Shown here: in pieces, positions 35,783 to 40,717 of the stretch
How the letters are laid out: the number at the start of each line of letters is the position of its first letter
Position numbering within the stretch: position 1 is the stretch's first letter
Assembly (NCBI RefSeq): GCF_018502625.1
Contig: NZ_CP075566.1
Span: 253,001 to 317,000, forward strand
Length of the DNA: 64,000 nt
From: Pseudomonas hormoni
GTDB lineage: Bacteria; Pseudomonadota; Gammaproteobacteria; Pseudomonadales; Pseudomonadaceae
Direction: 5' to 3'
The notes under the pieces: model-generated
What the model was told of the DNA's origin: nothing
The model's input: the letters and a program-made list of their open reading frames with translations, nothing else
The model's database searches: none
Made by a program: the position numbers and the translations under genes

Positions 35783-36343
35783 CTACTTGCTCCGTCCAAT
35801 CAATTGCAGGAACTCCTGGCGGGTGTTGCTCGACTCGCGGAAGGCGCCGAGCATCACCGAGGTGTTCATGGTCGAATTCTGTTTCTCGACGCCGCGCATC
35901 ATCATGCACATGTGCTGTGCTTCGATGACCACCGCGACACCCGCGGCACCGGTCACCTGTTGCACCGCGTCGGCGATTTGCCGGGTGAGGTTTTCCTGGA
36001 TCTGCAGGCGACGGGCGAACATGTCCACCAACCGCGCAATCTTCGACAGACCCAGCACTTTACCCGTTGGAATATAAGCCACATGCGCCTTGCCGATGAA
36101 GGGCAGCAGGTGATGTTCGCACAGCGAGTACAGCTCGATGTTGTCGACAATGATCATTTCATCGTTGTCGGAGGCGAACAACGCGCCGTTGACGATTTCT
36201 TCGACACACTGTTCATAACCGTGACACAGGTACTGCATGGCCTTGGCCGCGCGCAGCGGCGTATCGAGCAAGCCTTCGCGTTCGGGGTTTTCACCGAGGC
36301 CGATGAGGATCTCGCGATAGCTCTGGGTCAGGGATAACGTCAT
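35783..36343 (-). CDS. folE: GTP cyclohydrolase I FolE
   Basis: A 186-residue type I GTP cyclohydrolase with the zinc ligands in LCEHHLLPF and in the [11 protein letters not shown] segment, and the [22 protein letters not shown] core. It converts GTP to dihydroneopterin triphosphate, the first step of folate and monapterin synthesis. It is the middle gene of folM-folE-folX. Pseudomonads often carry a second folE for folate, so this copy may serve mostly the pterin cofactor. Confidence 0.95.
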
Positions 36344-36364: not shown

Positions 36365-37075
36365 CTATTTGAGGTGCCGTCCGCCGTTGACGGTCAGGGT
36401 CGTGCCGGTGACATAAGGGTTGTCGAGCAAATAACGCAGGCTCTGGTAGATCACTTCGCTGCCCGGTTCGATGCCCAGCGCAGACTTGGCCAGGGCTTTG
36501 GTGCGGTAGGCCGCGTCGTCGTCGGGATTAAACAGTAGCAGGGCTGGGGAGATGCCGTTGACCTTGATGTCTGGTGCGTACTTCGCGGCGAAGGACAATG
36601 TGAGACTGTCCAGCCCGGCTTTGCTGGCGCAGTAGCCGATGTGTTTGCTGCTGCCCCTGCGAGTGACGTCATCGCTGATGTGCACGATGTCGGCCGGGCT
36701 CGAGCGTTGCAGCAAGTCGGCGCAGTGCAGGTTGATCAGGTAGGGCGCCAGCATGTGCACGCTGAACAGGCGGGTGAAGGCTGCGGCGTCGGTGTCTGGC
36801 GTTTCGGCCAGCCATTCGGAGGCGTTGTGGATGATCGCGCGCAAGCTGTCTGTGTGGGTTTTCAGTTCGCTGATGAAGGCGAAAATTCCGGCTTCGGTAG
36901 AAAAGTCTGCGAATACCGCCGTCGCCCCCAGATCACGCAATGCCTGTACACCGGGGCGTTCAGTGCGATAGCTGAAGATCACGGCATGGCCGTCTTCGAG
37001 CAAACGCTGCGCGCAGTGCAGGCCGACACGCTGGCCGGCACCGGTAATCAGGATCGGAGCGGATGAAGAAGTCAT
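36365..37075 (-). CDS. folM: Dihydromonapterin reductase FolM
   Basis: This 236-residue short-chain dehydrogenase has the cofactor motif ITGAGQRVGLHCAQRLL, where QRVG marks the pteridine-reductase/FolM group, and the catalytic YxxxK in IGYCASKAGLDSL. It reduces dihydromonapterin to tetrahydromonapterin with NADPH. Start at MTSSSAPILITG; a start nine codons upstream is less likely. It heads the fol operon, with a class C REP element upstream. Confidence 0.93.
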   Translation of the reverse strand: MTSSSAPILITGAGQRVGLHCAQRLLEDGHAVIFSYRTERPGVQALRDLGATAVFADFSTEAGIFAFISELKTHTDSLRAIIHNASEWLAETPDTDAAAFTRLFSVHMLAPYLINLHCADLLQRSSPADIVHISDDVTRRGSSKHIGYCASKAGLDSLTLSFAAKYAPDIKVNGISPALLLFNPDDDAAYRTKALAKSALGIEPGSEVIYQSLRYLLDNPYVTGTTLTVNGGRHLK

Positions 37076-37279: not shown

Positions 37280-37849
37280 TCAGTGGTTTTGAGTGGAGTG
37301 TTCGGTTGGCAACGGTCGCGATGCCGCGCTGTTCAGCCAACCGGCCAGCATCCGCGTCGACAGTGGAATGAAGAAGTAAACCATCAACGGCGTCAGGCAC
37401 AGCGTGCTGATCAACACCCGAGGCAGCAGGCTCATTTCGCCGAGCAACGGCCCCAACAAAAAGTTGAACAGCAACGACACCGGAAAGAACGCCAGCCAGA
37501 TCGCCACGGCTTGTTTCCAGCGTGGCGGACGTTGGCCGGCAGCACCGAACCAGCCTTCGATGCCGCTCACGCGATGTTCCGTCTTATGCGCAAACAGATC
37601 GCTGCCGCGTGCAAGCCAGGCGGTACGCGAGGCGGAGTGCTCCCAGGCGTGCATGGTCTGCTCGTTGGCGAAGCGGAAAATAATCTGGAATTCGTCATCG
37701 TCGGGCGGCGGGGCGAGCACGCCTGAGCCGAGATAACCCTGGAAGTCGGTGGCCAGTTGTTCGCCTTCGCGCAACCAGGCCATCAGGTCCTGATAACGCC
37801 CATCGGCGACGCGGCGCGCAACCATCAGCGTGACGGGTGAGGTAGACAT
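37280..37849 (-). CDS. Antibiotic biosynthesis monooxygenase (ABM)-domain membrane protein
   Basis: 189 residues from the ATG at 37849, with GGAG seven bases upstream. Residues 1-95 form an ABM ferredoxin-like domain (MVARRVADGRYQDLMAWLREG, FQIIFRFANEQTMHAWEHS). Residues 120-185 hold two membrane helices (AVAIWLAFFPVSLLFNFLLG and VLISTLCLTPLMVYFF). Such fusions are common in pseudomonads and have no assigned reaction. It is divergent from the MerR regulator at 38061, so regulation by it is possible. Confidence 0.82.
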   Translation of the reverse strand: MSTSPVTLMVARRVADGRYQDLMAWLREGEQLATDFQGYLGSGVLAPPPDDDEFQIIFRFANEQTMHAWEHSASRTAWLARGSDLFAHKTEHRVSGIEGWFGAAGQRPPRWKQAVAIWLAFFPVSLLFNFLLGPLLGEMSLLPRVLISTLCLTPLMVYFFIPLSTRMLAGWLNSAASRPLPTEHSTQNH

Positions 37850-38060: not shown

Positions 38061-39020
38061 ATGCCTGTCCTGACTGACGATGTCCCTGGTACTCAGAGCT
38101 CTGTTCCGATTGAACGGGAAGAGCTGTTTCCGATCCGCGAGGTGTCTCGGCTGACAGGCGTCAACCCGGTCACGTTGCGAGCCTGGGAGCGCCGTTATGG
38201 CCTGATCCAGCCAATGCGCACCGAAAGCGGGCATCGGCTGTACTCGATAGCCGATATCGAGCGGATCCACAGTATCCTTGCCTGGCTCGACCGCGGCGTT
38301 GCCGTCAGCAAGGTCGGCAAGATCCTGGCCAGGACCGCGCCGCTTCAGGCGCTGTCGCACCTCATCCCCAATGAACTGGTGCAAGCGGACTACGCGCAGT
38401 GGCAGGAACAGGTCAAAGCAGCCGTCAGCGCGTTCGATGAGGTCCAGCTGGAGCAAGTCTATGGACAGATCTTTTCCAGTTACCCCCTGACGGTGGCGTT
38501 CCAGGACATTCTGATTCCGCTCTGGCAGCAATTGCTGCAACGCCATGAAGGGTTCGGCCAGACAAGCGAGTGGCTATTCCTGGACGGCTTTCTGCGTTCT
38601 CGTGTGTTGCAACGGCTGCTGCTGGCGCGTGTCATGCAGCCGCGTCGCGTGATCGTCGGTGCCCTTAACGATCAATGTCGCGAGCTTGAAGTGCTGCTCA
38701 CGGCGCTGTTTCTGAGCAGTGTCGATTCGGCGATTCAAGTGTTGGCGCTCGGTCAGCCCTTGGACGAACTGACCCTGGTCTGCGAAAGAGTCAAGCCAAA
38801 GGCGTTGGTGCTGGTGTCCAATCATGCACCTGCCCCTGAGCTGCCGCGGCGTTTGAACCGGCTGGCCATGAGCCTGGATTGCCAGTTGATGCTCGCCGGC
38901 GATGCATCGGATATGGCGCAGGATAGCCTGAGAGGCTCGTCCATTGGCTGTTTGGGTAACGAGGGAATGGTGATGCGTCAGCGTCTGAAACAGTTCCTGG
39001 CAGGCAACCTGGATACCTGA
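38061..39020 (+). CDS. MerR-family regulator, LitR/CarH-like without the B12-binding histidine
   Basis: 319 residues. A MerR helix-turn-helix occupies residues 22-90 (PIREVSRLTGVNPVTLRAWERRYGL). An effector region like that of the light-responsive LitR/CarH regulators follows, with a helical bundle (100-185) and a Rossmann-like domain (190-310). Where cobalamin-binding members have E/D-x-H-x-x-G, this protein reads DQCREL, so the cobalt-ligating histidine is absent. That is the pattern of the pseudomonad class II LitR proteins, which are reported to work with a short LOV protein. Such a LOV gene lies 0.7 kb away. Confidence 0.88.
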   Translation: MPVLTDDVPGTQSSVPIEREELFPIREVSRLTGVNPVTLRAWERRYGLIQPMRTESGHRLYSIADIERIHSILAWLDRGVAVSKVGKILARTAPLQALSHLIPNELVQADYAQWQEQVKAAVSAFDEVQLEQVYGQIFSSYPLTVAFQDILIPLWQQLLQRHEGFGQTSEWLFLDGFLRSRVLQRLLLARVMQPRRVIVGALNDQCRELEVLLTALFLSSVDSAIQVLALGQPLDELTLVCERVKPKALVLVSNHAPAPELPRRLNRLAMSLDCQLMLAGDASDMAQDSLRGSSIGCLGNEGMVMRQRLKQFLAGNLDT

Positions 39021-39021
39021 A

Positions 39022-39681
39022 TCAGAGGTGCAGGGCGGGATGCGTCAGCCGATGCTGCTGAAGGATGTACTGGCGCAGGCGCTCGGTTTCGTCGGTGTCG
39101 CTCTGACTCAACTGATACGCGTAGAAACCGTTTTCGGTTTCCTTCTCGAAGGTGCCGCGCATCGCGATTCGTTCATAGCCTGACGGGCTGAACCACAACG
39201 CGAAATGTTTGGGCGCTTTTGTCTTGTTGCGAACTTCCAGCAAGACGCCTTTGAACGACACTTCGTGCACCCACATCGTACCGGGCTGGCCACTGGCGTT
39301 TTCCAGCGCGACCGGCTCTTCGAGTACCAGGCGCCATGGCCGGACCATTGGCCCGTCTTCATAGATGCTGGGGACGCCGAGGCGTAAATGCAGCGCATGA
39401 AACTCGTCTTCCACCAGATGTAGCGGGAAGGTCATTTGCTGATTTTCGAAATTGGCCTGGATGGTGACCTGCTCATGTGCGGCAAGGCGCGTGAGCAAGT
39501 CACGGATTTGCGAACCACCGTTGACGAGCAGACTCGACGTCGCATCCCGCACATTGAGTTGCGGGTTGTGTTGCATGGTCTGGATAAAATCCAGCTCATC
39601 CTGGGTCAGGAGCGCGTCGCGTTGCATGGTCTGCTCGAAAGAAATAGTTACATAGCCACCGGTGATTGTAGTTAATGACAA
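39022..39681 (-). CDS. PilZ-like / YcgR-like domain protein
   Basis: Up to 219 residues. The frame opens with a TTG directly after the LOV stop codon; an ATG at 39627 is an alternative start. Residues 20-105 look like a YcgR N-terminal beta domain (FIQTMQHNPQLNV, QVTIQANFENQQMTFPLHLV). Residues 110-215 look like PilZ, with RPWRL for the arginine motif and VHEVSFKGV for the D/N-x-S-x-x-G motif. The motifs are degenerate, so cyclic-di-GMP binding is uncertain. It converges on the LitR-like gene, with one base between the stop codons. Confidence 0.65.
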   Translation of the reverse strand: MSLTTITGGYVTISFEQTMQRDALLTQDELDFIQTMQHNPQLNVRDATSSLLVNGGSQIRDLLTRLAAHEQVTIQANFENQQMTFPLHLVEDEFHALHLRLGVPSIYEDGPMVRPWRLVLEEPVALENASGQPGTMWVHEVSFKGVLLEVRNKTKAPKHFALWFSPSGYERIAMRGTFEKETENGFYAYQLSQSDTDETERLRQYILQQHRLTHPALHL

Positions 39682-40158
39682 TCAATTCTTGGTTTTGTTT
39701 TCGCCGTTCGTCGCTTTTAGCGCAGCCAGTTCTTTTTGCAGCTCGGCCACTTGCGTCTCAAGCTGTGTAACTCGCTGCTGCGCCTTGACCTGAACGGTGA
39801 CGTCTTTTTGCACACCGACAAAATAAGTCTGACCGTCGCTCGGATTTTTCACCGTCGAAAGCGACAGTTCATTCCAGAACGGGGTGCCTTCCTTGCGGTA
39901 ATTGCGCAGGATTTCCCTGCAGGAACCGCCGCTACCCAGCGCCTCGCGAATCAACGGCAGTGCGTCCTGATCGCGGTCGCCTGACTGCAGAAAGCGGCAA
40001 TCCTGGTAGAGAATTTCTTCGCTGGTGTAACCGGTCATGCGTTCGAACGCCGGGTTGACGTAGATCAGGATGTTGTCGTGCTCACCTTCTTTTTCGGCGA
40101 TCACGATGCCTTCATTGGACGCGTTGATCACCATTTGCAGCAGTTGCGCGTTGATCAT
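39682..40158 (-). CDS. Short LOV-domain photoreceptor
   Basis: 158 residues from MINAQLLQMVINASNEGIV. The LOV core runs from residue 8 to 118. The flavin-adduct cysteine is Cys54 in LYQDCRFLQSGDRDQ (the canonical GxNCRFLQ with Tyr-Gln-Asp before Cys), followed by NYRKEGTPFWNELSL and FVGVQKDVT. A coiled-coil C-terminal helix (residues 120-150) replaces any effector domain. It closely resembles the short LOV proteins SB1 and SB2 known from P. putida. A GGAAGGG site precedes the ATG. It is divergent from the flavodoxin gene and directly upstream of the PilZ-like gene. Confidence 0.93.
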   Translation of the reverse strand: MINAQLLQMVINASNEGIVIAEKEGEHDNILIYVNPAFERMTGYTSEEILYQDCRFLQSGDRDQDALPLIREALGSGGSCREILRNYRKEGTPFWNELSLSTVKNPSDGQTYFVGVQKDVTVQVKAQQRVTQLETQVAELQKELAALKATNGENKTKN

Positions 40159-40261: not shown

Positions 40262-40717
40262 ATGAAAGTCGCCATCCTTTCCGGCTCGGTGTACGGCACG
40301 GCTGAAGAAGTCGCCCGCCACGCTGCGAACATTTTGAAAACTGCGGGATTCGAAACCTTCCACAACCCGCGTGCGAGCCTCGCCGATGTTCAGGCCTTCG
40401 GCCCCGAAGCCTTTCTGGCGGTGACTTCGACCACCGGCATGGGTGAACTGCCGGACAACCTGCAACCCTTGTATTTCGCTATTCGCGATCAGTTGCCGGC
40501 GGCCTGGCGTGGTTTGCCGGGCGCTGTCATCGGCCTGGGTGATGCGAGCTACGGCGACACGTTCTGCGGCGGCGGCGAACTGATGCGTGAACTGTTCGGC
40601 GAACTGGGCATCCGCGAAGTGCTGCCGATGCTGCGTCTGGACGCCAGCGAAAGCGTCACGCCGGAAACCGATGCCGAGCCCTGGCTGGCGGAACTGGTCA
40701 CGGCCCTGCGGGGCTGA
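40262..40717 (+). CDS. Flavodoxin (MioC-like)
   Basis: This 151-residue flavodoxin has the FMN phosphate loop SGSVYGTAEEVA at residues 8-19 and the later loops STTGMGELPDN and LGDASYGDTFCGG. It carries single electrons with FMN. The ATG at 40262 is preferred over the TTG one codon earlier. It is divergent from the LOV gene across about 100 bases, and that gap may hold both promoters. A link to the LOV gene is inferred only from position. Confidence 0.92.
   Translation: MKVAILSGSVYGTAEEVARHAANILKTAGFETFHNPRASLADVQAFGPEAFLAVTSTTGMGELPDNLQPLYFAIRDQLPAAWRGLPGAVIGLGDASYGDTFCGGGELMRELFGELGIREVLPMLRLDASESVTPETDAEPWLAELVTALRG

Follow-up and report, generated by a model that had tools for sequence, protein, structure and literature searches.

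A class II LitR/short-LOV photoswitch locus of Pseudomonas hormoni containing a conserved gene for a predicted PilZ-fold protein

Gene content of the locus

The window, the 64,000-nucleotide stretch of DNA analysed here, sits in a 6.48 Mb single-contig genome. The genes of interest and their neighbours were the following:

35783..36343, minus strand: folE, GTP cyclohydrolase I (family search)
36365..37075, minus strand: folM, dihydromonapterin reductase (NCBIfam PRK06483.1, E 1.5e-107)
37280..37849, minus strand: ABM-domain-like protein, a conserved neighbour (ABM E 9.1e-5; 23.0 bits, just below the 23.1 cut-off)
38061..39020, plus strand: class II LitR-type MerR regulator, PplR3/PmlR2-like, 319 aa (HTH, helical bundle and B12-domain-like Rossmann fold without the B12 histidine)
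39022..39627, minus strand: predicted PilZ-fold, YcgR/MrkH/MotI-like protein (MID), 201 aa (R96-P-W-R99 and E122-x-S124-x-x-G127 in place of RxxxR and [DN]xSxxG)
39628..39681, minus strand: 54-base gap from the LOV stop to the start of the PilZ-fold gene, both genes on the same strand
39682..40158, minus strand: short LOV blue-light photoreceptor, 158 aa (LOV core, adduct Cys in YQDCRFLQ, no effector domain)
40262..40717, plus strand: flavodoxin, PRK05723 family (E 1e-88)

The gene order was folX?-folE-folM-ABM (minus), LitR (plus), MID and LOV (minus) and flavodoxin (plus), with the folX label assigned by position and appearance. The sequence-only reading of this DNA had described a regulator, a PilZ-like gene and a LOV gene at 38061..40158, the middle gene lying one base from each of the others. 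The three genes are real, but the spacing failed on the LOV side, where 54 bases intervene. The regulator and LOV genes are 661 bases apart.

Promoter- and terminator-like matches around the locus were at about chance level. Since the LOV gene and MID share a strand across a 54-base gap, their spacing is steady (57 bases between hits, counting the stop codon, at 103 of 136 loci) and no terminator-like site was reported between them, the two are probably co-transcribed in the window.

The regulator and the short LOV protein

The regulator carried a MerR-type HTH at its N-terminus (Pfam MerR_1, E 1.9e-16) and kept the CarH fold, Rossmann domain included. The B12 histidine was gone. In the alignment with CarH/LitR, DQCREL stood opposite CarH ERHEIG, so that the cobalamin histidine of the class I LitR/CarH motif E/D-x-H-x-x-G was replaced by Cys, and the EH of the CarH pocket was changed to EW. 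The histidine was found in 0 of 147 LitR reads across the compared loci. This agrees with the sequence-only reading, which had proposed a CarH/LitR-like C-terminal half lacking the histidine. By its sequence and predicted fold, the regulator is a member of the class II LitR (PplR/PmlR) type, for which repressor release by lit LOV is known from P. mendocina homologues.

Residues 1–155 of the LOV protein matched 7yx0, a short LOV protein of solved structure (E 4.2e-72). PAS families alone exceeded the Pfam cut-offs, and the match to NCBIfam YtvA_fam (E 9.7e-42) stayed under that model's cut-off. A LOV core and a predicted adduct Cys were present and an effector domain was absent, as in short LOV proteins; C-R-F-L was found in 148 of 149 LOV reads at the compared loci. 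The whole genome held two LitR genes (plus one weak HTH match) and three short LOVs, and a 333-aa ORF gave one more LOV match. The third short LOV (C1:1802298-1802756, outside the window) has genes for a copper-type P-type ATPase and a PAS-GGDEF protein close by (both labelled by eye), and no LitR match was found in the surrounding 9.4 kb.

The PilZ-fold middle gene

The predicted structure of MID contained the PilZ beta-barrel, and the model was that of a YcgR/MrkH/MotI-like PilZ protein. As to an N-terminal YcgR-N (PilZN) domain, Foldseek aligned 162–189 columns of the model with MotI, MrkH and YcgR, but at an rmsd of 12–18; VIA coverage comprised residues 93–199. Pfam and PDB sequence searches gave no family for MID itself, and an NCBIfam match was set aside as weak (E 0.0024, far below the cut-off). 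Its nearest named relatives include P. migulae, P. moorei, P. frederiksbergensis and P. mandelii. P. aeruginosa PA3436 was considered as a possible equivalent of the middle gene; a search for that tag gave no paper.

Both classical c-di-GMP motifs were absent from the window protein, which has V95-R-P-W-R99 at the RxxxR site and EVSFKG at the [DN]xSxxG site. Among 46 MID members RxxxR occurred in 5 and [DN]xSxxG in 7; in a broader alignment of 115 sequences the numbers were 24 and 1. Judged by eye, the motifs showed no clear split by LOV presence. Conserved residues were R96, W98, R99, E122 and R162, the last being K in the window. Both motif tests were negative for a classical c-di-GMP receptor; binding of some ligand is still possible.

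Distribution in Pseudomonas and beyond

MID, LOV and LitR were each sought in one set of 149 Pseudomonas genomes, of which the own genome was one. LOV matches were accepted at E ≤ 1e-30 and entered down to about 3e-48. Matches down to about 2e-57 were counted as close LitR, the LitRs of LOV-less genomes lying at 1e-32 to 1e-43. Neighbourhoods were read with flanks of 4.5 kb for 15 LOV-less genomes, 5 MID-less genomes and 40 others, and with short flanks for a further 30; the locus set includes several same-species duplicates.

MID was found in 142 genomes, LOV in 132 and close LitR in 130. LOV and close LitR coincided almost perfectly (both 130, LitR only 0, LOV only 2, neither 17), and LOV lay within 2.5 kb of close LitR in 125 of the 130. 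Together with the in vitro behaviour of the P. mendocina homologues (PMC9758184), this upholds the earlier proposal that the LitR, lacking the B12 histidine, gets its light sense from the LOV protein. MID, on the other hand, did not track LOV (both 127, MID only 15, LOV only 5, neither 2; Fisher p = 0.18). Physical linkage was frequent: MID adjoined LOV in 123 of 127 genomes, and the whole trio was adjacent in 116 of 149, which extends the arrangement well past the single strain to which it might have been confined. Two orphan short LOVs were observed adjoining MID in genomes where close LitR was not found (G138 and G088).

Fifteen of the 149 genomes had MID and neither LOV nor close LitR, and five had LOV and LitR and no MID. 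In all 15 LOV-less genomes with MID a flavodoxin gene adjoined MID, and the other side was occupied by ABM and folM in 11 and by folM alone in 1. In four further genomes (G024, G025, G065, G099) the LOV gene lay elsewhere and MID stood at the flavodoxin site without it. The PilZ-fold gene is thus conserved and follows the flavodoxin/fol neighbourhood rather than the photoswitch. In a flavodoxin tree (68 rows, one short gene; a quick build that left 32 of its 65 inner branches open), the no-LOV state took 9 changes, at least 4 of them forced by starred branches, and the no-MID state 2, gains and losses being indistinguishable in both cases. Conservation within the own clade was 94.6% for MID and 85.7% and 77.9% for its partners (66 loci, chosen by MID similarity and therefore biased), whereas in distant clades MID was conserved less than its partners. 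A reading of MID as the slower-evolving core partner was dropped because it holds only in the own clade and for loci picked by MID.

In a family sample of 59 genomes from 19 genera, own genus included, MID was present in 17 and LOV in 36. Outside the own genus, LOV adjoined MID in 4 of 12 MID genomes; in the other 8, MID stood beside folM without LOV, with flavodoxin on the opposite side in 7. The LOV gene was on another contig in 7 of these 8 (three other genera; flavodoxin opposite folM in 6 of 7), and a LitR within 1.5 kb of it was read in 6 of the 7. By count, 21 genomes outside the own genus were LOV-positive and MID-negative. An order-level draw of 116 genomes gave MID in 4, of which 3 belong to the family and the fourth is a weak partial match.

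Predicted regulator boxes

The 2020 work of Sumi on P. putida KT2440 is said to describe the box T(G/A)TACA-N12-TGTA(C/T)A and a RudS-pplR1-photolyase operon. Across the genome, boxes with at most one mismatch occurred at 15 places, against 8 for a control pattern; 5 were perfect. Two of the perfect boxes, 50 bases apart, lay just upstream of a RudS-pplR1-photolyase run (C1:4654581-4664352, outside the window) that ends near a CMAS-family gene. This run is likely the main light-induced operon, judging from its genes and boxes, and the search as a whole indicates the probable location of the genome's light regulon. One-mismatch boxes were also seen before an amine oxidase gene neighbouring the run and upstream of chalcone-isomerase-like and lipocalin-like genes (L238:365-1524; labels by eye).

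In a region outside the window (C1:1841699-1845534), a perfect box was observed 55 bases upstream of a PAS-PAS-chemoreceptor and EAL gene pair, near which lies the second short LOV of the genome. Of the three closest relatives, G038 has this box, and G049 and G125 lack it within 1.5 kb. The second LOV and the boxed pair could possibly form a direct link from light to c-di-GMP and chemotaxis.

The 64-kb window held no box with at most one mismatch; control of folM-folE by the window LitR is therefore not predicted. Weak sites (at most 3 mismatches) numbered 34 in the window against a shuffle mean of 17.9, with 0 of 100 shuffles reaching as many. The best site at 35–41 kb had 3 mismatches, as did that of the gap between the ABM and LitR genes, and PplR boxes near the trio were rejected on these grounds. 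Over 130 loci, the best sites in the gap between ABM and LitR were shuffle-like overall, with an excess at 2 mismatches (9/130 versus 14/650 shuffles). Short gaps, the kind found in the window, gave 5/119 versus 24/1190 shuffles at 2 mismatches, and long gaps of distant clades 4/11 versus 1/110. Because the long gaps exceed their shuffles, the site may be real in those clades and the locus itself light-regulated. In such distant Pseudomonas clades (L137, L143, L148) the TGTACA-type sites lay about 80–110 bases before the regulator match.

The published photoswitch

Illuminated PmSB-LOV of P. mendocina binds PmlR2, whose N-terminal HTH part interacts, and lifts repression in vitro (PMC9758184). 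The lit LOV-LitR complex stays on DNA in gel shifts and is released in BIAcore, the result that the authors prefer (PMC9758184). In light, LOV was constitutive, and pmlR2 rose 1.4–1.5 fold, folM 2.4–2.5 fold and folE 1.6–3.3 fold (PMC9758184, Table 1). A class II LitR operon contains RudS (PMC11417400).

That no description of the third partner existed, as the sequence-only reading had it, was half right: the cluster of pmlR2, PME15565 and pmSB-LOV has been published as conserved in Pseudomonas, and the main text assigns PME15565 no function and leaves PilZ unmentioned (PMC9758184). PMC11231323 mentions neither PilZ, LitR nor c-di-GMP. Among the papers listed on short LOV, PilZ, LitR, blue light and c-di-GMP in Pseudomonas, none deals with the PilZ-fold gene in this setting, judged by titles and abstract openings. 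What is new here is the prediction that the conserved middle gene encodes a PilZ-fold, YcgR-like protein.

Interpretation

The LOV-LitR pair is the class II LitR/short-LOV photoswitch already known from publications and ordinary for Pseudomonas. We consider it probable that the locus combines this switch with a PilZ-fold gene whose job is a separate one and which persists in genomes lacking the switch. In the dark, LitR would sit on TGTACA-N12-TGTACA boxes and repress photoprotection genes. Under blue light a Cys-FMN adduct would arise in the LOV dimer; the dimer would then bind the N-terminal part of LitR and lift repression. The targets in this genome would be, outside the window, the RudS-pplR1-photolyase-...-CMAS operon and a small number of further operons with boxes. 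MID would belong to the flavodoxin-folM neighbourhood, co-transcribed with LOV here and serving its own purpose. Gene content, predicted folds, the missing B12 histidine, co-occurrence and boxes come from our analysis; LOV-LitR binding and de-repression in vitro come from the homologues. We infer that the window strain would behave as the homologues do, with the PilZ-fold gene as a bystander to the photoswitch. Trio adjacency (116/149) and the steady LOV-MID gap (103/136) speak against a bystander, since they would also fit a functional unit; further points against it are the position of MID as the most conserved of the trio in the own clade (loci chosen by MID) and a mutant of P. putida.

This mutant concerns PP_4630, which is probably pplR3. 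The assumption is made because the next-numbered PP_4629 is a possible photoreceptor (PMC5743806). A transposon mutant of PP_4630, annotated 'MerR family', lost the high-c-di-GMP phenotypes of crinkly morphology, flocculation and biofilm; it was a single mutant, outside those chosen for complementation (PMC4951495). It is a hint that the regulator itself has some connection to c-di-GMP. The consecutive tags leave no number for a middle gene in KT2440.

The sequence-only reading had the middle gene tie the switch to c-di-GMP or motility. This found no support, in view of the 15 genomes that keep MID without LOV or LitR, the 5 that keep LOV and LitR without MID, and the altered motifs. As the presence of MID is not tied to the photoswitch, adjacency alone is not enough to read into it a link from light to c-di-GMP; MID may provide such a link, but the gene distribution lends it no support. 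A three-part switch, in which the PilZ-fold protein would read c-di-GMP and gate the signal from LOV and LitR or relay it to motility or biofilm, could draw on the YcgR/MrkH/MotI-like fold, the short same-strand gap to LOV, the trio adjacency, the PP_4630 mutant and the RxxxR of 24/115 sequences in the broader alignment, yet the same distribution and the scarcity of the motifs (5/46 and 7/46, with 1/115 for the second in the broader alignment; the window protein has neither, and by eye they do not divide clearly between genomes with and without LOV) make it unlikely. We give a similarly small chance to a conditional third member of the photoswitch, made with LOV, binding c-di-GMP or another ligand through the changed pocket (xRxWR / ExSxxG) and coupling blue light to sessile-motile decisions. 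If true, this would account for the lost high-c-di-GMP phenotypes of the PP_4630 (probably pplR3) mutant.

The PilZ-fold protein might instead be co-expressed with the LOV-LitR output and assist it independently of c-di-GMP, for instance by binding LOV, LitR or flavodoxin as an adaptor. The conserved R96, W98, R99, E122 and R162, of which the window protein has K for the last, suggest that a binding surface has been preserved, and the neighbours of MID are conserved too; its retention without LOV and LitR makes this reading distinctly doubtful. That the regulator itself is a B12 or other-cofactor photoreceptor and LOV incidental is highly improbable: the CarH fold is complete, Rossmann domain included, and PMC11417400 terms class II LitR regulators B12-dependent, contrary to PMC9758184, but the histidine is missing from all 147 reads, the pocket EH is EW, LOV and close LitR co-occur 130 to 0, and per PMC9758184 the homologues are LOV-dependent and P. 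putida shows no B12 requirement.

Comparison with known systems

The locus has its closest counterpart in PmlR2/PmSB-LOV of Pseudomonas mendocina NBRC 14162, with the same trio (pmlR2, PME15565, pmSB-LOV), folM-folE-folX as neighbours, a class II LitR without B12 site and a short LOV with the adduct Cys (PMC9758184). Judged by position, PME15565 is the MID homologue; the main text of PMC9758184 gives it no function, and the PilZ fold was predicted here for the middle gene of the window. A box-like site lies 95 bp upstream of P. mendocina folM (PMC9758184), in contrast to the window, which has no box with at most one mismatch.

MID shares the C-terminal PilZ domain and the two-part layout of its model with the effectors YcgR, MrkH and MotI. 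Unlike these, it has altered classical c-di-GMP motifs and was found almost only in Pseudomonadaceae among the genomes searched. P. putida KT2440 reportedly has the LitR regulators PplR1-R3 with PpSB1/PpSB2-LOV as partners, compared with two LitRs and three short LOVs in the present genome. CarH and class I LitR of Thermus thermophilus have the B12 His and EH where the window regulator has Cys and EW, and the latter, unlike them, occurs with a separate LOV photoreceptor. The pair exemplifies, as already published, a member of a B12 photoreceptor family that lacks the cofactor site and works with a separate LOV sensor.
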